This document shows positions 8,601-60,353 of a DNA stretch of 64,000 bases, one piece after another (position 1 is the first letter of the stretch; every line of letters starts with the position of its first letter). This stretch comes from a bacterium HR40. GTDB lineage: Bacteria; Pseudomonadota; Alphaproteobacteria; Geminicoccales; Geminicoccaceae. The position numbers and the translations under genes were made by a program. The stretch is taken from contig BEIQ01000001.1 in the NCBI GenBank assembly GCA_002898275.1, positions 303,899-367,898 of the forward strand, in the 5' to 3' direction. The notes under the pieces were generated by a model. That model saw only the letters and a list, made by a program, of their open reading frames with translations, had not been told where the DNA came from and searched no databases.

Positions 8601-9494
8601 TTAGAAGGATTCCAACTTATCGCTGCCATTGCGGCGGCGATCGTCCGCGTTCGCGACCACGAGGACCCGGGGCAGACCGGCGAGATCCGCAAGCTCGTCG
8701 ATCACCGCGAGGCCGGCCTCGGCGAACACAGCGGCGATGGACGACGCGCGCCCAGCCGCCAGCTCGAGAACGGCCACACCCTCTGGCGCAAGGATGCGAG
8801 GGAGGTCGGCGGCGATCGCCCGGTAGGCCTCGAGGCCCGAGGGGCCGGAAGCGAGCGCGAGAGCCGGCTCGAAAGCGAGCTCCGGCGGCGCGGCGGCGAG
8901 TTCGGCGGTGGTGAGATAGGGAGGGTTGGCGATGACGAGGTCGAAGGGACCGGCAAGCGCCTCGGCGAAATGCGTGCAGACGAAACGGGCGCGCTCCTGC
9001 ACCCCATGGGTCACGGCGTTGCGGCGGGCGAGCCGCAGGGCTGGAAGCGAGAGGTCGGTGCCGATCGCGAAGCTGTGCGGCAGCTCCAAGAGCAACGCGA
9101 TCATCAGACATCCCGACCCGGTACCGATATCGACCATCCGCAAACATGGCGCCCGGCGGTCTGCCAGCCGCTCGACGGCGACATCGACGAGCAGTTCGCT
9201 TTCCGGTCGAGGCACCAGCACCTCTGGGCCGACCTCGAACACGAGTCCGCGGAACTCCTTCCGGCCGAGCACATAGGCGAGAGGTTCGCGCCGGAGGCGC
9301 CGGCCAACCAGGGCCTCGAGCCGTTCCTCCTCGACCGGCGAAAGGTGGCGTTCGGGGGAGGCGAGTTGGGCCTCGCGGGATAGGCCGGTCGCCTGCTCGA
9401 TGAGCAGCCGGGCTTCGAGCCGGGGTAGCTCGATGCCGGCTCGCTCGAGGCGGCGGACGGTTGCAGCCAGGGCAGCGCCGAGGCTGCGACTCAC
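8601..9494 (-). CDS. prmC: Peptide chain release factor N5-glutamine methyltransferase PrmC (HemK)
   Basis: A 297-residue SAM-dependent methyltransferase that methylates the glutamine of the GGQ motif in release factors. The SAM-binding motif I is [18 protein letters not shown], and the catalytic NPPY motif is present ([11 protein letters not shown]). The N-terminal helical domain carries [12 protein letters not shown] at its border. It overlaps the 3' end of prfA, the gene of its substrate, by 4 nt (ATGA), so synthesis of the enzyme and its target is coupled. Last gene of the run before katG. Confidence 0.96.
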
Positions 9495-10579
9495 CGGCTC
9501 TCGCCCTCGAAGTGGGCGAGACGGGCGGCGCGATCCTCGGCGATCAAGGCATCGAGGATCTCGTCGAGCGCTTCGCCCGAGAGCACCTCATCGAGCTTGT
9601 AGAGGGTGAGGCCGATGCGGTGATCGGTGACCCGGTTTTGCGGAAAATTGTAGGTGCGGATGCGTTCCGAGCGGTCGCCGGTGCCGATCTGCACGCGGCG
9701 ATCGGCGGCACGCGCCCGCTCCTGCTCGAGGCGTTGCCGTTCGAGCAGCCGCGCGCGCAGGATCTGGAGCGCCCGAGCGCGGTTGCGGTGCTGCGACTTC
9801 TCGTCCTGGATCGAGACCGTGATCCCGGTCGGAAGATGGGTGATGCGGACGGCGCTCTCGGTGCGGTTGACGTGCTGGCCGCCCGCACCCGAGGCGCGGA
9901 ACACGTCGATCCGGAGGTCCTTTTCGTCGAGTTGGAGGTCGACCTCTTCCGCCTCCGGCAGCACCGCGACGGTCGCGGCGGAGGTGTGGATCCGGCCTTG
10001 GGCCTCGGTCACGGGCACGCGCTGCACCCGATGGACCCCTGCCTCGTATTTGAGGCGCGCATAGGCGCCGCGCCCGGCGACCAGGGCCACCGCCTCGCGC
10101 ACACCGCCCCGTTCGGTCTCGCTCAGGCTGAGGATCTCGAACCGCCAGCCGTGCTTTTGGGCCCAGCGCTGGTACATGCGCAGGAGATCGGCGGCGAACA
10201 GGGCCGCTTCCTCGCCTCCCGTCCCGGCGCGGATCTCGAGGATGGCGCTCTTGTCGTCGAAGGCGTCTTTCGGCAGGAGTGCGAGCCGGATCTCGCGCTC
10301 GAGCTCCTCGAGTCGCCGCTCCACCCGCTGCAACTCGTCACGGGCGAGGGCACGCATCTCCGGCTCGCCGGCCTCCTCGCTGGCGAGGGCCTCGAGTTCC
10401 TGGCGTTCCTGCCGCAGGCGCTGCCATTCCTCGATATGGGCGACGATCGGGGCGAGTTCGGCGTGCTCGCGCGCGAGCCCGGCATAGACCGAAGGGGTCG
10501 CCTCGCTCATCAGGGCCTCGAGTTCCTGCTTGCGGGCGAGCAGGGCTTCGAGGCGCCGCTCGAAGCCAGCACGGCTCAT
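9491..10579 (-). CDS. prfA: Peptide chain release factor 1
   Basis: A 362-residue class I release factor that reads UAA and UAG. The stop-codon recognition tripeptide appears as PVT ([14 protein letters not shown]), which separates RF1 from RF2 (SPF). The catalytic GGQ is at residues 233-235 in [12 protein letters not shown] and is the target of PrmC encoded next door. Starts inside the hisS stop (4-nt overlap) and ends inside the prmC start (4-nt overlap), so three translation genes form one transcript. Confidence 0.97.
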
Positions 10580-16692: not shown

Positions 16693-17738
16693 CCCTCTCT
16701 CTCCGCGGGCGGCGGATGACGGCGGGCGAGGGCACGCTCGCTTTGCTCGACGAGTTCGGCGAGGATCTCGCAGACTGGCCGTTCGGCGCGCACGAAACCC
16801 ACGCTCTGACCGGCCATCAACGAGCCATTCTCGACATCGCCCTCGATCACCGCCCGGCGCAGCGCCCCTGCCCAGAAATGCTCGATCAAAAGCGACGCCT
16901 CGTCGTAGCTCAGCTCGCCGGCGCGGTAACGGGCGATCACCTCTTGCTGGGTGCGGACGAAGCGCTTCGTCGCTTCGTTGGCGAGCGCCCGCACGGGGAT
17001 CACCCGGAACTCCGGATCCAGCTGCACCGAGACCACGGCGTCACGGGCGCTGGCGCGAATATAGGCCCGCTTGGTCTCGGGATGAACGATGGATTCGCTC
17101 GCGCAGACGAAGATCGTGCCCATCTGCACGCCGGCTGCGCCCATGCCGAGAAAAGCGGCAATGCCTTCGCCGTGGCCGATCCCGCCGGCGACGAACACGG
17201 GGACTTCGCTCAGCTCCGGCAGCACCTCCTGCGCGAGGACGGACGTCGACACCGGACCGATGTGGCCTCCCGCCTCGGAGCCCTCGAGGATCAGGCCGTG
17301 CACCCCCATGCGGACGAGGCGCTTGGCCACTGCCAGGCCGGGGGCGAAGGCCATCACCTTGACGTCCGCGTCGCGCAGCCGCGCCACCAGCTCGCGCGAC
17401 GGCAGCCCGCCCGCCAGCACGACATGCGATACCCGCCGATCGATGCACACCCGCACGAGCTCGTCGAGCTCGGGATGCACGAGGATGAGGTTGACGCCGA
17501 ACGGACGATCGGTGAGCGCTCGGGTGCCGTCGATCTCGGCGGCGAGGGCTTCCGGCCCCATCGACCCGCAAGCGAGGACGCCAAAGGCCCCAGCGTTGGA
17601 GAGGGCGGAAACGAGCATCCGTTCCGAGACCCAGGTCATCGCCCCGCCCATGAAAGCAAGTTCCGTGCCGAGAAAGCTGCGGCCACGGGCAGAGGCTTCC
17701 GCGAGACGCGGGTGCGGCGGTAGCCTGACCAAGGGCAC
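16689..17738 (-). CDS. Nitronate monooxygenase / 2-nitropropane dioxygenase family protein
   Basis: A 349-residue FMN-binding TIM barrel of the NMO/FabK superfamily. The N-terminal strand reads GGAMTWVSERMLVSALSNAGAFGVL, the phosphate-binding region is EGSEAGGHIG with FVAGGIGHGEGIAAFLGMGAAGVQMGT in two separate segments, all standard for the family. The GTG start is 8 nt after the lysC stop and the gene overlaps ptsP by 4 nt, so it belongs to that operon. True nitronate oxidation is only one activity in this superfamily; the substrate is not settled by sequence. Confidence 0.85.
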   Translation of the reverse strand: MPLVRLPPHPRLAEASARGRSFLGTELAFMGGAMTWVSERMLVSALSNAGAFGVLACGSMGPEALAAEIDGTRALTDRPFGVNLILVHPELDELVRVCIDRRVSHVVLAGGLPSRELVARLRDADVKVMAFAPGLAVAKRLVRMGVHGLILEGSEAGGHIGPVSTSVLAQEVLPELSEVPVFVAGGIGHGEGIAAFLGMGAAGVQMGTIFVCASESIVHPETKRAYIRASARDAVVSVQLDPEFRVIPVRALANEATKRFVRTQQEVIARYRAGELSYDEASLLIEHFWAGALRRAVIEGDVENGSLMAGQSVGFVRAERPVCEILAELVEQSERALARRHPPPAEREG

Positions 17739-17746
17739 CTCGTGCG

Positions 17747-18970
17747 TTACGTGCGGTCGAGCCCGTAGGCGGCGTGCAGGGCGCGCACCGCGAGCTCGGT
17801 GTACTCCTCGGCGATCAGCACACTGATTTTGATCTCGGAAGTGGAGATCGCCTGGATGTTGATCCCCTTTTCGGCGAGGGTGGCGAACATGCGGTGGGCG
17901 ATGCCCGCGTGGCTCCGCATTCCGACGCCGATCACCGACACTTTGGCCACCCCGTCGTCGGCATCGACCCGCTCGAAGCCGACAGCGTCGCGAAGGCCCT
18001 CGAGAATCGCCTTGGCCCGCGGCAGGTCGGCACGGCTCACGGTGAAGGTGATGTTGGTGTGGACGCCGTCCCGCGACACCGACTGCACGATCATATCGAC
18101 ATTGATGTTGGCTTCGGCGAGCGGCCCGAAGATGGCCGCTGCCACACCCGGCCGGTCCAGGACCCGCACCACGGAGACCTTGGCTTCGTCGCGGGTGTAG
18201 GCGATGCCGCTCACAAGCTGGGTTTCCACGATCTCGTCCTCGTCGACCACCAGGGTTCCGGGAAGGTCCTCGAAGCTCGACAGCACCTGCACGCGCACCT
18301 TATAGCGCATCGCCAGCGCTACCGACCGCGTCTGCAGGACCTTGGCACCGACCGATGCCATTTCCAGCATCTCTTCGTAGGTGACGCGGTCGAGCTTGCG
18401 CGCCTTGGGCACGATCCGCGGATCGGTCGTATAGACGCCATCGACGTCGGTGAAGATGTCGCAACGGTCGGCACCGAGGGCGGCGGCGAGGGCCACAGCG
18501 GAGGTGTCCGACCCGCCGCGTCCGAGGGTGGTGATCCGGCCATCCGGGCCGATGCCCTGGAAGCCGGCCACCACTGGCACGATGCCGGATTCCAGGCAGC
18601 GGCGGAGCGGCGTCGGGTCGATCGAGACGATGCGCGCCTTGCCGTGTGCATCGTCGGTGCGGATCCCGGCCTGCCAGCCGAGAAAGGAGCGGGCGGGGAT
18701 GCCGAGCCGCGCGAGGGCGATGGCGAGCAAACCGATGGTCACCTGCTCGCCGCTCGCCACCACCTGGTCGTACTCGGCCGGATCGTAGTGGGCTGGATCG
18801 AGGCCCATCACCCAGTCGACCAGCTGATTGGTATGACCCGCCATGGCGGAGAGCACGACACACACACGCTCGCCGGCCCGCACGTGGCGCGCCACTCGCG
18901 CCGCGACGTTGCGGATGCGGTCGAGATTGGCGACGGACGTGCCGCCGAATTTCTGGACGACGAGAGTCAC
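17747..18970 (-). CDS. lysC: Aspartate kinase
   Basis: A 407-residue enzyme that phosphorylates aspartate at the start of the lysine, threonine, methionine and diaminopimelate pathways. The nucleotide motif KFGGTSV starts at residue 7, with GRGGSDTSAVALAAALGAD and FTDVDGVYTTDPR in the kinase domain. Two ACT domains (~265-330 and ~345-400, NINVDMIVQSVS and INIQAISTSEIKISVLI) bind feedback effectors. A GTG at 18970 is the start; an open extension upstream to 19534 is out of family. First gene of the lysC-ptsP run. Confidence 0.96.
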   Translation of the reverse strand: MTLVVQKFGGTSVANLDRIRNVAARVARHVRAGERVCVVLSAMAGHTNQLVDWVMGLDPAHYDPAEYDQVVASGEQVTIGLLAIALARLGIPARSFLGWQAGIRTDDAHGKARIVSIDPTPLRRCLESGIVPVVAGFQGIGPDGRITTLGRGGSDTSAVALAAALGADRCDIFTDVDGVYTTDPRIVPKARKLDRVTYEEMLEMASVGAKVLQTRSVALAMRYKVRVQVLSSFEDLPGTLVVDEDEIVETQLVSGIAYTRDEAKVSVVRVLDRPGVAAAIFGPLAEANINVDMIVQSVSRDGVHTNITFTVSRADLPRAKAILEGLRDAVGFERVDADDGVAKVSVIGVGMRSHAGIAHRMFATLAEKGINIQAISTSEIKISVLIAEEYTELAVRALHAAYGLDRT

Positions 18971-32632: not shown

Positions 32633-33403
32633 TTGTCGCTGCGGGCGGATCTCTCGGGTCGCGTGGCGCTCGTCACCGGAGCCTCGGGGGGGCTCGGCTC
32701 CCATTTCGCCCGCCTGCTCGCGGCCAACGGCGCGGCGGTAGCGCTCGCCGCCCGCCGGCACGACCGTCTCGCCGCCCTCGCCGCCGAGATCGTGGCGACG
32801 GGTGGGCGAGCGCTGGCGGTCCCGATGGATGTCACCGATGGAGCGAGCGTGCGGGCCGGCTTCGATGCCGCCGAGGCGGCTTTGGGCACCGTCGATCTCC
32901 TCGTCGCCAATTCCGGCATTGCCGGCCGCGGTGGTTGGCTGCTCGACGTCGAGGAGACGGACTTCAGCCGCGTGATCGAGGTCAATCTGACGGGTGTCTT
33001 CCGCACCGCTCGCGAGGCCGCCCGTCGGCTGGTCGCCGCGCGGCGACCGGGGAGTATCGTCGTGGTGGCCTCGATCATCGCCTTCGCGACGGCCCCAGGG
33101 GTCGCGGCCTACGGGGCGTCCAAGGCCGCGGTGGTCCATCTCGTGCGCAGCATGGCGCTCGAATGGGCACGCTATGGGATAAGGGTCAATGCCCTCGCAC
33201 CCGGTTATATCCCGACCGAGCTCAACCGCGACTTCCTCGCGAGCGAGGCGGGCGAGCGCGTCCGCGCCCGCATCCCCATGCGCCGCTTCGGCGATCCTGC
33301 CGATCTCGACGGTGCGCTGCTTTTGCTCGCCTCGGATGCCTCCCGCTACATGACCGGCAGCGTCCTCGCCGTCGACGGTGGCCATCTGGTCGCCCCGCTG
33401 TGA
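32633..33403 (+). CDS. SDR-family dehydrogenase/reductase (LvaD-like position)
   Basis: A 256-residue classical short-chain dehydrogenase. The cofactor motif TGASGGLG is at residues 15-22, VANSGIAG replaces NNAG, and the catalytic Ser-Tyr-Lys set lies in ASIIAFATAPGVAAYGASKAAV (split SII...YGASK). The C-terminal SRYMTGSVLAVDGGHLV is typical. The TTG start follows GGAGGAGG by a few bases. It begins an operon with NIPSNAP, acyl-CoA dehydrogenase, an APH-type kinase and a small DUF6285-like protein. By analogy to LvaD it may reduce a 4-oxoacyl-CoA to a 4-hydroxyacyl-CoA; this is inference from context. Confidence 0.9.
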   Translation: MSLRADLSGRVALVTGASGGLGSHFARLLAANGAAVALAARRHDRLAALAAEIVATGGRALAVPMDVTDGASVRAGFDAAEAALGTVDLLVANSGIAGRGGWLLDVEETDFSRVIEVNLTGVFRTAREAARRLVAARRPGSIVVVASIIAFATAPGVAAYGASKAAVVHLVRSMALEWARYGIRVNALAPGYIPTELNRDFLASEAGERVRARIPMRRFGDPADLDGALLLLASDASRYMTGSVLAVDGGHLVAPL

Positions 33404-33423
33404 CAGCTCCAGGGAAGACAGGG

Positions 33424-33744
33424 ATGATCGTCGACCACCGCACCTACACCCTCCATCCCGGCAAGATGAAGGAGTTCCTCGAGCTCTACGAGCGCGAGGG
33501 CTATCCCGTACAGACGAGATATCTGGGCGAGCCGATCGGTTGGTACGTGTCCATGGACATCGGCCCCCTCAACCAAGTCGTCCACATGTGGGCCTACGAG
33601 GATCTCGCCGATCGTGCCCGCCGGCGGGCGGCCCTCCAGGCCGACCCCGCTTGGGCCAGCTATCTCGCCAAGGCGACGCCGCTCATCCAGCACATGGAGA
33701 ACAAGATCCTCCATCCGGCTCCTTTCTTCCGCGCCAAGGGCTAG
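33424..33744 (+). CDS. NIPSNAP-family protein
   Basis: A 106-residue single-domain NIPSNAP protein (dimeric alpha-beta barrel fold). It starts MIVDHRTYTLHPGKMKEFLELY and has the LNQVVHMWAYEDLADRARRR helix, both diagnostic. Members often sit with catabolic enzymes and may bind small ligands, but no reaction is established. It lies 20 nt after the SDR gene and 4 nt before the acyl-CoA dehydrogenase. Confidence 0.88.
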   Translation: MIVDHRTYTLHPGKMKEFLELYEREGYPVQTRYLGEPIGWYVSMDIGPLNQVVHMWAYEDLADRARRRAALQADPAWASYLAKATPLIQHMENKILHPAPFFRAKG

Positions 33745-33748
33745 AGCC

Positions 33749-34948
33749 GTGGACTTCCGGCTGTCGCCCGAGCTCGAGGAGCTGCGCCGGCGGGTCGTCG
33801 ACTTCGTCGACACCCGACTGTTGCCGCTCGAGTCCGACCCTGCGAGCTTCGGCGAGGGCGAGCATATCCGCGAAGACCTGCTCGTTGCGCTGCGGGCGGA
33901 GGCGAAGCGAGCGGGGCTGTGGGCGCCGCAGGTGTCGAGGGCGAGGGGAGGTCTCGGTCGATCCCTGGCCGACTGTGCCGTCCTCTACGAGGAGATGGCG
34001 CGCTCGCGCTTCGGCCCCCTGGCCTTCAACTGCGCCGCTCCCGACGATGGCAACATGCTCTGCCTCGAGCTCTGCGCGAGCGAAGCGCAGAAGGATCGCT
34101 GGCTGGATCCCATCGTGCGGGGCGAGGTGCGCTCGGCCATCGTCATGACCGAACCGCATCCCGGGGCCGGTTCCGATCCCGCCGGCATGATGCGCACGAT
34201 CGCCGAACGCCGCAACGGCCATTACCGTGTCTTCGGGCGCAAGTGGTTCATCACCGGGGCGCAGGGGGCCAAGCACTTCATCCTCCTCGCCCGCACCTCC
34301 GAGGATCCGCGCCGCGGCCTCACCGCCATGCTCTACCATGCCGACCAACCGGGCTGGCGGATCCTGCGGCGGATCCCGATCATGGGGCCCGAGGAGCACG
34401 GCGGTCACTGCGAGCTCGAGTTCGACGGACTGGAAGTGCCGTTCGAGAACGTGCTTCTGGGCGAGGGGCTCGGTATGAAGGTGGTCCAGATCCGCCTCGG
34501 CCGGGCGCGGCTCACCCATTGCATGCGCTGGCTCGGCATGGCCCGCCGGGCGCTCGAAATCTGCGAGCCCTATGTCCGCGAACGCGAAGCCTTCGGCCAG
34601 AAGCTGATCGCCCGCGAGAGCGTGCGCGGCATGCTCGCGCGGGCGGCGATGGCGATCGAGGTCGGTCGACTGCTCGTCGCCCGCGCGGCCTCCAAGCTCG
34701 ATCTCGGCGATCAGGCGCGCAAGGAGGTGTCGATGGCCAAGATCCACGTCGCCGACACCCTGCATCTTGCCGTCGACACGGCGATCCAGCTCACGGGGGC
34801 GTTGGGCTACAGCCGCGACACGCCGCTCGAATGGATGTACCGCTACGCGCGTCAGGCGCGCCTCGTCGATGGCGCCTCGGAGGTGCACGCGATGGTGGTC
34901 GCACGCGAACTCCTCGAGCGCGGCCGCGAGTTCTTCGCTTGGCCGTGA
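33749..34948 (+). CDS. Acyl-CoA dehydrogenase family protein (ACAD10/11- or LvaC-like context)
   Basis: A 399-residue flavoprotein with the acyl-CoA dehydrogenase fold: a helical N-terminus from DFRLSPELEELRRRVVDF, the middle beta domain with AIVMTEPHPGAGSDPAGM and GRKWFITGAQGAKHFILLA, and the C-terminal helices with QLTGALGYSRDTPLEWMYRYAR and LVDGASEVHAMV. GTG at 33749 starts the protein, 4 nt after the NIPSNAP stop. Its end overlaps the kinase gene by 4 nt. Next to an APH kinase it resembles ACAD10/11 and LvaC, which act on phosphorylated 4-hydroxyacyl-CoA by eliminating phosphate. That specific role is inferred. Confidence 0.9.
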   Translation: MDFRLSPELEELRRRVVDFVDTRLLPLESDPASFGEGEHIREDLLVALRAEAKRAGLWAPQVSRARGGLGRSLADCAVLYEEMARSRFGPLAFNCAAPDDGNMLCLELCASEAQKDRWLDPIVRGEVRSAIVMTEPHPGAGSDPAGMMRTIAERRNGHYRVFGRKWFITGAQGAKHFILLARTSEDPRRGLTAMLYHADQPGWRILRRIPIMGPEEHGGHCELEFDGLEVPFENVLLGEGLGMKVVQIRLGRARLTHCMRWLGMARRALEICEPYVREREAFGQKLIARESVRGMLARAAMAIEVGRLLVARAASKLDLGDQARKEVSMAKIHVADTLHLAVDTAIQLTGALGYSRDTPLEWMYRYARQARLVDGASEVHAMVVARELLERGREFFAWP

Positions 34949-35982
34949 ACGCGACGTCCACGTCCGAGCTTTCGCCCGCCGCGCTCGAGGCGTTCCTCGC
35001 CCGGGCTTGCGGGGCGACCACCGCCCGGGTGGTGCGCGAGGAGCGGCTCACCGGCGGCGCCATTCAGGACAATCGCCTCCTCGTCGTGGAACTGGTCGGG
35101 GGGCCCTACGCCGGTCGCCAGGAGTTCGTGCTGCGCACCGATGCCGCGAGCGGCGTGGCGGCGTCGTGGGACCGGGCGCATGAATTCCGCATCCTCAGAG
35201 TGGTCCACGCCGCCGGTGTGCGGGTGCCGGAGCCCGTGGCCTTTTGCGACGATCCCGCGGTTCGCGGCCGTCCCTTCCTGCTCATGCGGCGGGTCATCGG
35301 CGAAACCCGCGGTGCTCGCCTCGTCCGCGATCCGCAGGTGCGGGAACGGGGCGAGGACCTCGTGCGGGCGGTCGCGGGCGAGATGGCGAAGCTGCATGCG
35401 ATCCGCCCGCCGCAGCGGGAGCTCGCCTTTTTGCCGCTGCCCGAGCCCGATCCGGCGCGGGCGCGGATCGCCCTCTATCGTCGCTGGCTCGATGCCATGG
35501 AAGCCGCCGAACCGGTGGTCGAACATGCGCTCCGGCGGCTGGAGCTCGCGCCGCCGGCGAGACAAGAGGTGGTACTGGTCCACGGCGACCTGAGGGTCGG
35601 CAACCTCATGGTGGCGCAGGGGCAGCTCGTCGCGATCCTCGACTGGGAATTCGCTGGCTGGTCGGATCCGCTCGAGGACCTGGGCTGGTTCTGTGCCCGC
35701 TATTGGCGCTTCGGGGTGGACGAGCGCGAGGCCGGCGGCCTGGCGTCGAGACGAGTCCTGGTCGCTGCCTATGAGGAGGCGAGCGGTCGGCGGGTGGATG
35801 CGCGGGCCCTCGCCTTCTGGGAAGTGATGGCGAACCTGCGCTGGGCGGTGATCGCCCTCATGCAGGCGCGGCGGCACAGCAGCGGTGCCGAGCGATCGCT
35901 CGAACTCGCGCTCACCGCTGCCGTGCTGCCCCGGCTCGAGCGCGACATCCTTTCCGGCCTGGAAGCTTGGGAGGACATGTGA
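34945..35982 (+). CDS. APH-fold kinase (ACAD10/11-N or LvaA-like phosphotransferase)
   Basis: A 345-residue aminoglycoside-phosphotransferase-fold kinase. The Brenner motif HGDLRVGN (His213, Asp215) and the metal-binding LDWEFAGWSDPLEDLGW (Asp233) are intact, as is the N-lobe with EFVLRTDAASGV. It is translated from a GTG overlapping the dehydrogenase stop and ends overlapping the next start (GTGA). The close relatives fused or linked to acyl-CoA dehydrogenases phosphorylate 4-hydroxyacyl-CoA. Drug resistance is unlikely in this setting. Confidence 0.88.
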   Translation: MNATSTSELSPAALEAFLARACGATTARVVREERLTGGAIQDNRLLVVELVGGPYAGRQEFVLRTDAASGVAASWDRAHEFRILRVVHAAGVRVPEPVAFCDDPAVRGRPFLLMRRVIGETRGARLVRDPQVRERGEDLVRAVAGEMAKLHAIRPPQRELAFLPLPEPDPARARIALYRRWLDAMEAAEPVVEHALRRLELAPPARQEVVLVHGDLRVGNLMVAQGQLVAILDWEFAGWSDPLEDLGWFCARYWRFGVDEREAGGLASRRVLVAAYEEASGRRVDARALAFWEVMANLRWAVIALMQARRHSSGAERSLELALTAAVLPRLERDILSGLEAWEDM

Positions 35983-36329
35983 TCGGGGTCGACTGGATCG
36001 TCGATCTGCTCGCGACGGCGCGCGAGGAGCTCCGGGAACGGATCCAGCCACAGTTGGCGCCGGAGGACCGCTATGTCGCCGCCATGATCGGACGGGCCAT
36101 GCAGATCGCGGGTCGCGAGCTCGCCCTCGGAGCGGCCATGCGCGAGCGCGAGCGTCAGGCGCTCGCCGGCCTGTTCGACGACCCCGCAGGCGAGCTCGAG
36201 GCGTTGCGGCGGCAGCTCGTGCGCGCCATTCGCGAGGGCGCCTTCGACGCGCGCCGAGGCGAGCTCGAAGCTGCCCTCGCGATGCGGGTTGCGGCGCGCC
36301 TCGCCATCACCGATCCCGACTACCGCTGA
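35979..36329 (+). CDS. Small DUF6285-like protein (LvaB-like partner of the kinase)
   Basis: A 116-residue, highly helical, charged protein with no membrane segment, containing YVAAMIGRAMQIAGREL and EGAFDARRGELEAALAMRVAAR. It looks like the small DUF6285 proteins found right after APH-type kinases in acyl-CoA operons. In the levulinate system the small LvaB is needed for kinase activity of LvaA, so the same complex is plausible here. The GTG start overlaps the kinase stop. It ends 9 nt from the convergent transporter gene. Confidence 0.72.
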   Translation: MIGVDWIVDLLATAREELRERIQPQLAPEDRYVAAMIGRAMQIAGRELALGAAMRERERQALAGLFDDPAGELEALRRQLVRAIREGAFDARRGELEAALAMRVAARLAITDPDYR

Positions 36330-36338
36330 GAGGTGCGG

Positions 36339-36896
36339 TCAGCCTCGCAAAGGGGTGCCGGCCGCAGCCGGGTGGACGAGCCCGTGGCGGACCCAAGCGA
36401 CGAGGGGCAGGGCGGCGAGATTGGCCTCGAGCTTGCCCACCACCTGCCCCAAAGTGTGCTGCAGGCCGTCGACGCCGAAAGCGAGCCACAAGAAGACGAG
36501 GCTGTCGACCGTGGCTCCGAGCAGTCCCGAGGCGAGAACCGCGAGATAGAGCCGCTTGCGGGCGAGCGGCGTATAGATGGCGGCGTCGAAGCTCTCGCTC
36601 AACAGAAAGGCAGCGCCCGAGGCGAGGGCGAGAGCGGTCGGGGCGACGAGGGTCGACAGCACGGCCCCGGCGAGGATCGCCCCCACCACGGCGCGCAGTC
36701 CGAACACGAGCTGGACGATGTCCCGCAACACCAGGGCGAGTCCGATCATCACGACCCCGCTCGGGGCGAGCAGGCCAGGTGCTACGGGCAGGAGACAGGG
36801 TCCTGCAGGGACGCACACGCTCCCGACATGGCCCACCATCCAGTTGGCGGCCGGGATGGTGGCGAGAAAGGCGAGGATAGCGAAGTAACGGGACAT
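36339..36896 (-). CDS. VUT-family (DUF165/YhhQ-like) queuosine precursor transporter
   Basis: A 185-residue inner-membrane protein with about six hydrophobic segments. It shows the family pattern TIPAANWMVGHVG near the start, VMIGLALVLRDIVQLVFGLRA, then SFDAAIYTPLARKRLYLAVLASGLLGATVDSLVFLWLAFG in pieces. The RD in the second helix and the D-SxxF motif are typical of YhhQ, the preQ0/preQ1 importer. A longer frame on the same strand exists but this one gives family text throughout. Upstream of it on the same strand is tRNA-Pro. Confidence 0.8.
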   Translation of the reverse strand: MSRYFAILAFLATIPAANWMVGHVGSVCVPAGPCLLPVAPGLLAPSGVVMIGLALVLRDIVQLVFGLRAVVGAILAGAVLSTLVAPTALALASGAAFLLSESFDAAIYTPLARKRLYLAVLASGLLGATVDSLVFLWLAFGVDGLQHTLGQVVGKLEANLAALPLVAWVRHGLVHPAAAGTPLRG

Positions 36897-57212: not shown

Positions 57213-58595
57213 TCAGTCGAGGAAGCCTGTGACCCGCGGCAGCCACAGCACGATCTCGGGGAAGAAAATGCAGAGGAACAGCCCGATCAGCTGCAGGATC
57301 ACGAAGGGCACGATGCTCTGGTAGATGTCGAGGAGCGTCACCTGCGGCGGAACGATTCCTTTCATGTAGAAAAGCGTGAAGCCGAACGGTGGGGTCAAGA
57401 AAGATGTCTGCAAATTGACGGCGATCAGGATCGTGATCCAAGGGAGGAAAGCGGAAGCCTGACCGACATGGGCGGAGAAGTCGATCTTCGCCAGGATGGG
57501 GTAGAAAATCGGCAGGACGATCAGGGAGATCTCGATGAAATCGAAGAAGAACCCGAGGATGAACACCAGGATCATGAGAAAGACCACGACTTCCCATCCG
57601 GTGTCGATCCCGATGGCAGCCAGGATGTCGGCGACCATGTAGTCGCCGCCCAGTGCGCGGAAGACGTAGGAGAACAGGGTCGCCCCCATGATGATGAAGA
57701 AAACGAGGGCGTTGGTAAGGCCGGCGTTCTCGATCACCTCGGCGAGCATGTTCGAGTTCAATCGACCGTTCAGCCAGGCGAGCAAGAGGGCTCCGGCGCA
57801 TCCCACCCCGGAGGCCTCGGTGGGCGTCGCCCAACCGAGGAAGATCGAGCCGAGTACGGCGAAGATCAGGAATGCCGGTGGGATCAGGCTTCTGCCGACG
57901 AGCCGCAAGAGATCGAGGCCGCGCAGGTGATGTTCGCGGGCGAGCGGTGGCGCCAGATGGGGCCAGAGGAAACTCACCGTGACGATGTAGAGCATGTAGA
58001 GCCCGGAGAGCAGGAAGCCTGGCAGGAAAGCGCCGGCGAACAGGGTGCCGACCGGCACTTGTACCAGGTCGCCGAGAATCACCAGCATGATCGAGGGAGG
58101 AATGAGGATGCCGAGGGTGCCCGAGGCTGCGATGGTGCCACAGGCGAGCCGCTTGTCGTAGCCGCGCTCCAGCATGGTGGGCAGCGCCATGAGGGTGAGC
58201 ATGATCACCGAGGCGCCGACGATGCCGGTGGTCGCGGCCATGATGGTGCCGAGGGCGGCGACCGAGAGGGCGAGGCCGCCCGGGATTCGCCGCAGCAGCA
58301 CCTGGAGGGCGTGGAGGAGGTCGTCGGCGAGGCGTGCCTTCTCGAGGACGAGGCCCATGAAGATGAACATCGGAATGGCCAGCAGCACCTGATTGACCAC
58401 CACGCCGCCGTAGATCCGCGGCATGATGCTGGCGAACTGGACGAGTCGGAATTCGTCGAGGAACCAGCCGATGAAACCGAAGAACACGCCCGTGGCGCCC
58501 AAGGAGAAGGCGACAGGATAGCCGCAGAAGAGGGCGGCGACGAGGGACAGGAACATGACTGCCGAGAGGTGATCGGCGAGCCACTCGAAGATCAC
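57213..58595 (-). CDS. TRAP transporter large permease (DctM-like)
   Basis: A 460-residue inner-membrane protein with about twelve helices that carries out sodium-driven solute transport. Family motifs include LFCGYPVAFSLGATGVFFG, LAIPMFIFMGLVLEKARLADDL, GTIMAATTGIVGASVIMLT and LGILIPPSIMLVILGDL. TPTEASGVG occurs mid-protein. The frame overlaps the small permease by 4 nt (ATGA). A second open minus-strand frame over the same region is a shadow. It works with the small permease and the two binding proteins upstream. Confidence 0.96.
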   Translation of the reverse strand: MIFEWLADHLSAVMFLSLVAALFCGYPVAFSLGATGVFFGFIGWFLDEFRLVQFASIMPRIYGGVVVNQVLLAIPMFIFMGLVLEKARLADDLLHALQVLLRRIPGGLALSVAALGTIMAATTGIVGASVIMLTLMALPTMLERGYDKRLACGTIAASGTLGILIPPSIMLVILGDLVQVPVGTLFAGAFLPGFLLSGLYMLYIVTVSFLWPHLAPPLAREHHLRGLDLLRLVGRSLIPPAFLIFAVLGSIFLGWATPTEASGVGCAGALLLAWLNGRLNSNMLAEVIENAGLTNALVFFIIMGATLFSYVFRALGGDYMVADILAAIGIDTGWEVVVFLMILVFILGFFFDFIEISLIVLPIFYPILAKIDFSAHVGQASAFLPWITILIAVNLQTSFLTPPFGFTLFYMKGIVPPQVTLLDIYQSIVPFVILQLIGLFLCIFFPEIVLWLPRVTGFLD

Positions 58596-59155
58596 AGCTG
58601 GACCTCCCTAGGATTTCGCATTCTTTCTCGGAGCTCTGCTGGTCCGAACAGGGCTACCGCCTTGCGGCAGAGCAGAGAGATCGAGGCAAGGAGCAAGGTG
58701 AAGATGCCGAACGCCAGGATCGACTTGATCACGAAGCGGGCGGGAAGCCCGGTCGGCGCATCGGAACTCTCGAGCTGCAGCCAGGAGGTCCAGGCGAACT
58801 GGACCGCATAGGGCAGCACCAGCAGACTGTAGGGGATGGCGAAGAAAAGCGTGCCCAGGAAGTCGATCCAGTCCTTTTTGCGACGATCGAGATGGCCGGT
58901 GAACACGTCGATGCGGACGTGCGCGTCGCGCACCACCCCATAGCCGATCCAGCCAAGGAACAAAGTGGCGGCGAGATGCCACTCGAGCTCCTGCAATCGC
59001 GTCGAGCCGAAATAGGGGAGCTGGAAGCCGAGCTTGCGGGTGAGCACGTCGAAGCAAATGACGACGGTTGTCGCGAGGAACAGCCATCCGGTCAGACGGG
59101 CGACCCGGCGCAGAAAGGCATCGATCCGATCGCTGATGGCAACGAGGATGTCCAT
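58592..59155 (-). CDS. TRAP transporter small permease (DctQ-like)
   Basis: A 187-residue inner-membrane protein with four helices. The pattern LTGWLFLATTVVICFDVLTRKLG, then LQELEWHLAATLFLGWIGYGVVRDAHVRIDVF in overlapping pieces, is diagnostic of DctQ, including the E-W-H/L segment and the A-H-V-R-I-D motif. GGAGG precedes the ATG. Coupled to the large permease and preceded by the binding-protein gene with a hairpin between them. Confidence 0.94.
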   Translation of the reverse strand: MDILVAISDRIDAFLRRVARLTGWLFLATTVVICFDVLTRKLGFQLPYFGSTRLQELEWHLAATLFLGWIGYGVVRDAHVRIDVFTGHLDRRKKDWIDFLGTLFFAIPYSLLVLPYAVQFAWTSWLQLESSDAPTGLPARFVIKSILAFGIFTLLLASISLLCRKAVALFGPAELRERMRNPREVQL

Positions 59156-59213
59156 CGCCTCCTTCTCCCTCGACGGGGCAAGGATCCAGGCCGACAGAGT
59201 CGATGGGAGGCGA

Positions 59214-59237
59214 GGGGAACGGCAAGAGCCATTCCCC
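59214..59237 (-). terminator. Intercistronic hairpin between TRAP binding protein and small permease genes
   Basis: GGGGAA pairs with TTCCCC, and an inner GGC-AAGA-GCC stem lies beyond one mismatch, starting 14 nt after the binding-protein stop. Such stems protect the upstream mRNA or partly stop transcription, so binding protein can exceed permease. Confidence 0.45.
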
Positions 59238-59251
59238 CCTTCCGGATACGG

Positions 59252-60304
59252 TCAGTCCCTGAGATAGCCGAGCTCGCGCCACAGCGCGTATTCGTTGCGG
59301 AACTTCTCGAGCGACGCCCACGCCTTGGCGAACATCGGGCTCTTCGCCTTTTCCTCTTCCACCACCTGGGCCCAAGCGGTGCGCATGGCGTCGAGGATTT
59401 CCTTCGGCCACTGGTGGATCTGCACGCCCTTTTCCTTGAGCTCGCGCAGGGCCGGGCCCTGTAGCGCCTCGCCGTAGGCGAACTCCCACATCATCGTGGC
59501 ATCGCAGGCGGTCTCGATGATGGCGCGCTGGCTATCGTCCATCTCTTTCCACAGATCCATGCGGATCAAGAGGTCGTTGAGAGTCGACTGCTGGTGCCAG
59601 CCGGGGAAATAATAGTGCTTGGCGATCTGGTAGAAGCCGTACGAAATATCCATGGACGGCATGGAGAACTCGGTGGCATCGATAGTACCGAGTTGTAGAG
59701 CCTGGAAGATCTCGCCGCCGCCGATGAGCTGGGTGGACACGCCGAGCTTTTCCATCACCCGCGCGCCCAACCCGTAGAAGCGCATCTTGAGACCCTTGAG
59801 CTGGTCTAGGCTCTTGATCTCCTCGCGGAACCAGCCGGAGCCCTCGGGCGGGATCAGGCCACAGGGAATGGCCTTGACGTTGTAGGAGCCGTAGAGCTCG
59901 TCCCAGATTTCGCGGCCGCCGCCGAACTTCACCCAGGCGATGTATTCCCCGGCCGCCGGTCCGAACGGCACCGCGCCGAGCAGGTTGAACGCCGGGTCCT
60001 TGCCGTTCCAATAGCCGGGCGAGGTCCAGGCGGCGTCGAGCGCCCCGCTCGCCACCGCGTCGAAGGACTGGAGGTTCGGCACGAAGGTGTTGGGTTCGTG
60101 GAAGCGCACCTCGATGGTGCCGTTCGAGATCCGGTTGATGGTCTCGACGAGGTGCAGCTGCGTGGGGCCGAGCAGGCCGACGTTCGAGCCATACCCGCCC
60201 TGCAGATCGATCTTGATCTTCTTGGCCTCCGCCTCGGCTGCAGCCAAGTGCAGGGCCATGCCGCAGACGGCGGCAAGGGCCAGTCGGAGATGGAACATGG
60301 GCAT
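59252..60304 (-). CDS. TRAP transporter solute-binding protein, TakP/DctP7-like (copy 1)
   Basis: A 350-residue periplasmic protein: signal peptide (~1-24, LRLALAAVCGMALHLAAAEAEA), then GGYGSNVGLLGPTQLHLVE and the ligand core LKGLKMRFYGLGARVMEKLG and GTIDATEFSMPS. The YYFPGWHQQ motif is typical of 2-oxo-acid/lactate-binding TRAP proteins. Of three clustered in-frame ATGs, the one at 60304 has GGGAGGG at the best spacing; 60310 would add two residues. It is closely similar to the next gene upstream. The exact ligand is unknown. Confidence 0.93.
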   Translation of the reverse strand: MPMFHLRLALAAVCGMALHLAAAEAEAKKIKIDLQGGYGSNVGLLGPTQLHLVETINRISNGTIEVRFHEPNTFVPNLQSFDAVASGALDAAWTSPGYWNGKDPAFNLLGAVPFGPAAGEYIAWVKFGGGREIWDELYGSYNVKAIPCGLIPPEGSGWFREEIKSLDQLKGLKMRFYGLGARVMEKLGVSTQLIGGGEIFQALQLGTIDATEFSMPSMDISYGFYQIAKHYYFPGWHQQSTLNDLLIRMDLWKEMDDSQRAIIETACDATMMWEFAYGEALQGPALRELKEKGVQIHQWPKEILDAMRTAWAQVVEEEKAKSPMFAKAWASLEKFRNEYALWRELGYLRD

Positions 60305-60353
60305 CGACATCCCTCCCTGACGTTGCTTCGCGATCGCCGAGACGATCCTGAAT

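Follow-up and report, generated by a model that had tools for sequence, protein, structure and literature searches.

A probable lva-type 4-hydroxyacyl-CoA operon with an added NIPSNAP gene and an LvaC-sister dehydrogenase in the alphaproteobacterium HR40

How a 4-hydroxyl group is removed after priming by a kinase is understood from one bacterial operon and from two mammalian enzymes (PMC12440821, PMC11342911, PMC6692424; these papers are cited throughout from excerpts). In the bacterial case, the lva operon of Pseudomonas putida (LvaABCDE), LvaB binds LvaA, and lvaA, lvaB and lvaC, but not lvaE, are essential on levulinate (Rand et al., cited in PMC6692424), the lvaE mutant of strain KT2440 still growing on this compound (PMC6692424); homologs of lvaABCD have been reported in Alpha-, Beta- and Gammaproteobacteria (Rand et al., 2017, cited in PMC6692424). 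In the mammalian ACAD10 and ACAD11, redox-active flavin adenine dinucleotide (FAD) is required despite the absence of net oxidation (PMC12440821), and a route via 2,4-dienoyl-coenzyme A (CoA) has been proposed (PMC11342911). Residues R626, H634 and R637 of ACAD11 are modelled as holding the 4-phosphate, with D753 as the base, and it is non-conservative changes at the former three that impair the second step most (PMC12440821); in ACAD10 this step is stopped by a non-conservative change of the catalytic Asp (PMC11342911). Here we describe five co-directional genes at positions 32633–36329, + strand, of a 64,000-nt stretch of contig BEIQ01000001.1 from bacterium HR40 (Geminicoccaceae), the whole stretch being referred to below as the window. 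Judging from sequence comparisons, these genes very probably constitute an lva-type 4-hydroxyacyl-CoA core module, phosphorylating 4-hydroxy acids for breakdown.

The genes encode, in this order, a short-chain dehydrogenase/reductase (SDR), a NIPSNAP protein, an acyl-CoA dehydrogenase, an APH-fold kinase and a DUF6285 protein; the row given in the preliminary description, with its gaps and overlaps, is confirmed by both coordinates and Pfam matches. The spacing along the operon is 20 nt, 4 nt, –4 nt and –4 nt, the last two being 4-nt overlaps. A chance row of open reading frames is excluded, because the gene order is conserved elsewhere. The stretch of DNA spanning the dehydrogenase and kinase genes is single-copy in the 2.9-Mb genome, which also has one DUF6285 match and one NIPSNAP match.

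The lva operon was represented by a row on plasmid p12939-PER of Pseudomonas aeruginosa, consisting of genes for a prpR-like regulator, kinase, LvaB, dehydrogenase, SDR, ligase, DUF485 protein and symporter. This row is an annotated relative standing in for the KT2440 operon; only its LvaB carries an lva name, the other assignments being by position. So defined, the identity is 44% for the kinase and LvaA, 47% for the small protein and LvaB, 43% for the dehydrogenase and LvaC, and 53% for the SDR and LvaD. With these values of 43–53%, the lva-type system suggested in the preliminary description finds sequence support for four of the five genes, and the two operons share the four active-site residues of the dehydrogenase considered below. 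The order differs, being D–NIPSNAP–C–A–B here and A–B–C–D–E there, and the NIPSNAP gene is an addition of the HR40 operon.

The dehydrogenase-fold enzyme (33749..34948, + strand; Pfam Acyl-CoA_dh_1, 3.8e-37) is related to both ACAD10/11 and LvaC. Its best matches among 177,635 solved sequences are ACAD11 (8v3u, 2.2e-67; 8v3v; 2wbi) and 4hr3, with medium-chain acyl-CoA dehydrogenase (MCAD) far lower, at 1.4e-43. Arg249, His257, Arg260 and Asp374 (motifs RLGRARLTHCMR and VDGASEVH) align with ACAD11 R626, H634, R637 and D753, while MCAD has Glu at the position of Asp374. For the survey of relatives we used the best 80 of 496 (loci totalling 1,266,036 bases), obtained by searching named genomes with eight aligned dehydrogenases; as the query consisted of motifs from the window's own clade, operons of the LvaC and ACAD11 types are under-represented. 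The four-residue set is kept in 79 of these 80 relatives, the remaining one having Gln for His, and is also present in seven further dehydrogenases of three types (loci L035 twice, L054, L234, L240, L241 and L242). It is found in none of the seven alignable paralogs from the host genome, where ten PF00441 matches comprise the operon enzyme and nine others, two of which (L063 and L065) could not be aligned usefully. A host acyl-CoA dehydrogenase gene, G000:C1:1052590-1053732 (L258), is broken by one in-frame TGA.

A careful tree was built from 41 of the 116 rows of a fast tree, the latter joining long branches, and both show the same main split. On one side of the 41-row tree are the host's seven other aligned dehydrogenases together with one Thermus paralog (100/100); on the other are three clades, namely the LvaC type (six rows, 100/99), the ACAD11 type (100/100; one row identified from a separate comparison) and the window's type (100/100). 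A long-branch warning applies in both trees to the host's other dehydrogenases. By the ACAD11-led matches among solved sequences and the 100/100 split, the enzyme does not group with ordinary beta-oxidation dehydrogenases, a grouping that would have refuted the preliminary description. The likeness to LvaC holds for the active-site residues and not for orthology: the enzyme falls outside the LvaC clade, in a sister clade, and by its sequence is a sister to LvaC with the same pocket. This third clade appears to be new as far as we have seen, no search having been aimed at that point alone.

The kinase (34945..35982, + strand; Pfam APH, 4.5e-38), an LvaA-like protein predicted to act on 4-hydroxyacyl-CoA, keeps the HGDxxxxN and DWEF motifs, and its Asp215, Asn220 and Asp233 are invariant in ten sequences. 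The residue preceding the invariant Glu80 is His, and Gln in the plasmid LvaA; similarity to the ACAD11 kinase is weak (8v3v, 2.1e-9). The SDR (32633..33403, + strand; Pfam adh_short_C2, 5.6e-62), whose gene has a TTG start preceded by GAGGAGGAGGG, would be the LvaD-like reductase of 4-oxoacyl-CoA to 4-hydroxyacyl-CoA, and its Ser147, Tyr160 and Lys164 are invariant among eight lva-type SDRs.

The last gene (35979..36329, + strand; GTG start at 35979) encodes a protein of 116 aa matching DUF6285 at 7.4e-21, a putative kinase partner. Over 106 aa it is 47% identical to the annotated 4-hydroxypentanoyl-CoA kinase subunit LvaB of the plasmid, itself a DUF6285 match (4.8e-24), as the preliminary comparison with the Lva system would have it. 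The AlphaFold2 (AF2) model (mean predicted confidence, pLDDT, 94) has four helices and no solved-structure match at E ≤ 0.001 in Foldseek, and the best VIA-align result (Z 7.5, 50 residues) carries little weight, the protein being a helical bundle; neither program yielded a lead to function from the fold. The family is patchy: of 60 near relatives 24 encode a member, and across the phylum the count is 26 in 299 genomes. Our literature search for DUF6285 turned up no papers.

Some DUF6285 loci have further features. A histidine phosphatase gene follows DUF6285 in lva-type operons of Stutzerimonas (L113, 7977–9094), Thermus (L116, 7962–8962) and Azospirillum (L111, 7974–8662). Pseudomonas citronellolis is described as having a histidine phosphatase and no lvaB (PMC6692424, excerpt); a DUF6285 gene, being short, may have been missed in that species. 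On a plasmid of Azotobacter salinestris (L112) one kinase protein accession occurs twice, at 8904–9980 and 17624–18700, and the second copy is followed by a shorter hypothetical gene, where DUF6285 would be.

The neighbourhoods of the 80 relatives were surveyed within 4.5 kb on the same strand, components being identified by phmmer with few queries, so that absences are soft. A kinase is found near 65 dehydrogenases, an SDR near 59, DUF6285 near 48, an LvaE-like ligase near 46 and a NIPSNAP near six; kinase, DUF6285 and SDR occur together in 34. The commonest layout, seen in 20 of the 80, is ligase–SDR–dehydrogenase–kinase–DUF6285. Rows of this lvaE-D-C-A-B type, e.g., in Tistlia consotensis (L125) and on a plasmid of Azospirillum sp. 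B510 (L111), share the SDR–dehydrogenase–kinase–DUF6285 order with the HR40 operon, with dehydrogenase identities of 69% and 63%, respectively, and differ from it in the presence of a ligase and, mostly, in the absence of NIPSNAP. Compared with ACAD10 and ACAD11, the kinase and dehydrogenase functions are in common and the phosphate pocket and catalytic Asp of ACAD11 are kept, while in HR40 the two proteins are encoded by separate genes, the dehydrogenase belongs to another clade, and DUF6285, SDR and NIPSNAP are encoded alongside.

As the preliminary description stated, the operon has no CoA ligase. The host genome has 18 AMP-binding matches, two of which share 59% and 56% identity with the ligase at the LvaE position of the plasmid. 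The same grade, 56–60%, is seen for five ligases within lva-type rows, and for eight when ligases from ligase–NIPSNAP pairs are included. Since 46 of the 80 relatives have a ligase nearby and the host has two elsewhere, the absence need not be a gap, and we reject it as such; the two host ligases are candidates for serving the operon. Nor do we take an in-operon ligase as defining, because the KT2440 lvaE mutant grows on levulinate.

In the pathway that we propose, families, residues, gene order and their conservation come from the present analysis, and the reactions, from published work on LvaA–E and ACAD10/11; that the HR40 proteins perform the same reactions, on what substrate, and with what activity of NIPSNAP, we infer. 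The CoA thioester of a 4-oxo or 4-hydroxy acid would be formed by a ligase encoded elsewhere. The SDR would reduce 4-oxoacyl-CoA to 4-hydroxyacyl-CoA, whose 4-hydroxyl would be phosphorylated by the APH kinase together with DUF6285, its LvaB-like partner. In the FAD-dependent dehydrogenase-fold enzyme, Asp374 would take the C2 proton while Arg249, His257 and Arg260 hold the phosphate, which would be expelled without net oxidation, removal of the 4-phosphate giving 2-enoyl-CoA for beta-oxidation. NIPSNAP would most likely be a cofactor-free acid–base enzyme (isomerase or epimerase) acting on one of these acyl-CoA intermediates, of use under some conditions only. Both the chemistry and four of the five parts have known precedents.

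The fifth part, the NIPSNAP protein (33424..33744, + strand), is a possible accessory component. Its PF07978 match (2.6e-32) spans positions 2–100 of 102, and its AF2 model (pLDDT 91) finds NIPSNAP chains at Foldseek ranks 1–15. Solved bacterial NIPSNAPs (2ap6, 5kak, 5k9f, 1vqs, 1vqy and 5ixu) have the same fold, with 40–53% identity in model alignments, and their entry titles name no function; to our knowledge, the family has solved structures and no assigned chemistry. Almost every row of the alignment has Arg6, Tyr8, Trp56, Arg64 and Trp77, while 15 lva-linked NIPSNAPs share Ser43, Asp45 (14 of 15) and Met91, in contrast to Thr, Glu and Gln in most of the 53 others. In a 73-row tree, coarse because it has few columns and built after short stretches were dropped, the window's protein belongs to a clade of 11 rows, all lva-linked (98/92), nested in a group of 17, of which 16 are lva-linked (81/89). 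Seven of the 23 lva-linked rows, including five that are first domains of two-domain proteins, fall outside this group, so that the lva-linked NIPSNAPs are spread over more than one clade.

Five loci (L298, L301, L302, L307 and L168) have two NIPSNAP domains in one stop-free frame before the dehydrogenase and, where both were read, the first and second domains lie in different parts of the tree. After NIPSNAPs, the HR40 model matches similar small barrels among the 50 matches listed, including LsrG (2gff, 1.4e-5, TM-score 0.61), the cofactor-independent oxygenase SnoaB, a hydroxynitrile lyase and the polyketide cyclase OAC, and these model-based neighbours hint at cofactor-free acid–base chemistry. 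LsrG itself acts downstream of a kinase, as the isomerase of a phosphorylated five-carbon dione.

A literature search pairing NIPSNAP with acyl-CoA, bacteria and operon, with Alphaproteobacteria and catabolism, or with levulinate terms turned up nothing, and among the matches listed for NIPSNAP with acyl-CoA dehydrogenase, judged by title and the start of the abstract, none concerned this pathway; NIPSNAP is likewise absent from both ACAD10/11 papers (PMC12440821, PMC11342911) and from PMC6692424. As far as these partial listings show, the link of NIPSNAP to the lva-type pathway is new.

NIPSNAP stands directly before the dehydrogenase in 14 genomes from at least five family-level groups (f1, f127, f165, f180 and f186): seven from the window's family, six at loci L297, L298, L299, L301, L302 and L307, and one, L168, from the named-genome scan (the dehydrogenases of L140 and L184 are identical to those of L298 and L299, and were counted together with them). 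Throughout the 1.27 Mb of the 80 surveyed loci, NIPSNAP matches occur in six loci, ending 11–46 nt before the dehydrogenase match, and nowhere else. Of 31 genomes from the window's family, 13 encode the window's dehydrogenase type (E ≤ 1e-100), and seven of these have NIPSNAP right before it, one copy being broken. In one metagenome-assembled genome (L120, the same place as L044/L207), NIPSNAP at 9672–9985 is split over two frames, giving a second fragment, which is either a broken gene or an assembly error. What the preliminary description called an extra component is indeed absent from most such operons; it is no oddity of this one operon, recurring at the same place, and its conservation amounts to a fixed slot in relatively few genomes.

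Outside the family, 70 of 289 genomes have a NIPSNAP match (E ≤ 1e-15). Out of 27 loci around these new matches, five have a dehydrogenase of the window's type within 1.5 kb, one has an SDR and a ligase, and three have a ligase only. Wider reads covered 20 regions, picked for promising matches and hence giving no frequency; NIPSNAP directly precedes the dehydrogenase in the six genomes named above, and one of them (L297) has the complete row ligase–SDR–NIPSNAP–dehydrogenase–kinase–DUF6285. In genus g2, two genomes (G001 and G015) have NIPSNAP, kinase and DUF6285 together and an LvaC-type dehydrogenase with the four residues elsewhere in the genome; in a third (G022), where NIPSNAP adjoins the kinase on a short contig, the search found no dehydrogenase with a score comparable to those of G001 and G015. 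Ligase–NIPSNAP pairs occur at L303, L304 and L305 (genomes G449, G543 and G377), with ligases 57–59% identical to the plasmid LvaE-position ligase and, over the stretch read, none of the other lva genes; such pairs raise the possibility that NIPSNAP is tied to acyl-CoA ligation. Beyond these three pairs, seven query types recognised nothing beside NIPSNAPs outside lva loci.

Several observations weigh against the lva-type assignment. Apart from the positional naming of the plasmid genes and the missing in-operon ligase, these concern individual proteins: the Arg modelled beside the alphaC Glu of the ACAD11 kinase has no clear counterpart here, by our own mapping, and the SDR passes the NCBIfam subfamily cut-off for "glucose 1-dehydrogenase", a label also carried by the LvaD-position SDR of the plasmid. 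In 15 of the 80 relatives there is no kinase within 4.5 kb, nine of these being near a contig edge and six not. NIPSNAP is optional, as the counts of six in 80 relatives and seven in 13 same-family genomes show, and among those 13, reading 1.5-kb flanks recovered the full set of five genes from the window alone. In eight of the 20 wider regions NIPSNAP occurs without any gene sought, in two (L310 and L311) with only an SDR besides and in three with only a ligase, and L300 has ligase, SDR and NIPSNAP without the dehydrogenase. Finally, no lva-like regulator or symporter was recognised among the immediate neighbours of the operon.

This last observation also bears on the substrate. The same module could serve a substrate other than levulinate, 4-hydroxy fatty acids or gamma-lactones entering as 4-hydroxyacyl-CoA and the SDR being needed only sometimes, and we put this at slightly below an even chance. 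It would fit six same-family genomes of genus g6, which have the row NIPSNAP–dehydrogenase–kinase–DUF6285 and no SDR in the stretch read, and the fact that ACAD10/11 take 4-hydroxyvaleryl-CoA as well as longer 4-hydroxyacyl-CoAs (PMC11342911, PMC12440821, excerpts). On the other hand, the first gene of the HR40 operon encodes an SDR resembling that at the LvaD position, and most of the 80 relatives have an SDR nearby.

A narrower alternative holds NIPSNAP to be a passenger, co-transcribed in some lineages without a step in the pathway. It would account for the 74 relatives where NIPSNAP was not seen (three with too little upstream DNA), for its absence from the plasmid lva operon, and for the scattered distribution, with seven changes of NIPSNAP state on the fast dehydrogenase tree (where L133, L136 and L167, having less than 450 nt before the dehydrogenase, are scored as lacking NIPSNAP) and six changes of lva-linkage on the NIPSNAP tree. 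We consider it unlikely, given the identical slot in 14 genomes with no match elsewhere in the surveyed loci, the retention of NIPSNAP with kinase and DUF6285 in genus g2, where the dehydrogenase is elsewhere, and the wholly lva-linked clade of the window's NIPSNAP. A bolder reading, in which NIPSNAP is a cofactor-free isomerase or epimerase acting on 4-oxo-, 4-hydroxy- or 4-phosphoacyl-CoA and feeding the kinase and dehydrogenase, is quite a speculative proposal, with low odds in our estimation. An epimerase would be useful, as handedness may matter: the ACAD10 kinase favours the R isomer, yielding about four times more product with it (PMC11342911, excerpt). An ordinary beta-oxidation operon of SDR and acyl-CoA dehydrogenase next to an unrelated kinase, suggested by the generic names that Pfam and NCBIfam alone yield, is extremely improbable and is ruled out by the tree and by the active site, with Asp instead of Glu as the base and an Arg/His/Arg pocket, the nearest solved relatives being ACAD11 and a kinase being close by in 65 of the 80 relatives.

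The operon is a closed unit between a divergent upstream and a convergent downstream gene. Upstream is a gene for an ATP-synthase delta-like subunit, part of an ATP-synthase-like cluster (named by eye), and downstream, a transporter-like gene with a Vut_1 match (36339–36896, – strand). A set of three TRAP transporter-like genes, also named by eye, lies 21 kb away at 57216–60310 of the window, – strand, and is a possible route for organic acids.

For the lva-type module, the set of loci described here adds a third clade to the phosphate-eliminating type of dehydrogenase, in most cases with a kinase gene alongside, and the HR40 operon offers variant enzymes for the conversion of levulinate and gamma-lactones. 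As NIPSNAP is placed in a pathway with defined intermediates, its role is open to a simple add-in or knock-out assay. If it were an enzyme of this pathway, it would provide the first defined reaction for the NIPSNAP family. NIPSNAP1 and NIPSNAP2 are mitochondrial proteins. ACAD10 is mitochondrial as well (PMC12440821, excerpt), and in that case NIPSNAP1/2 could be its partners.

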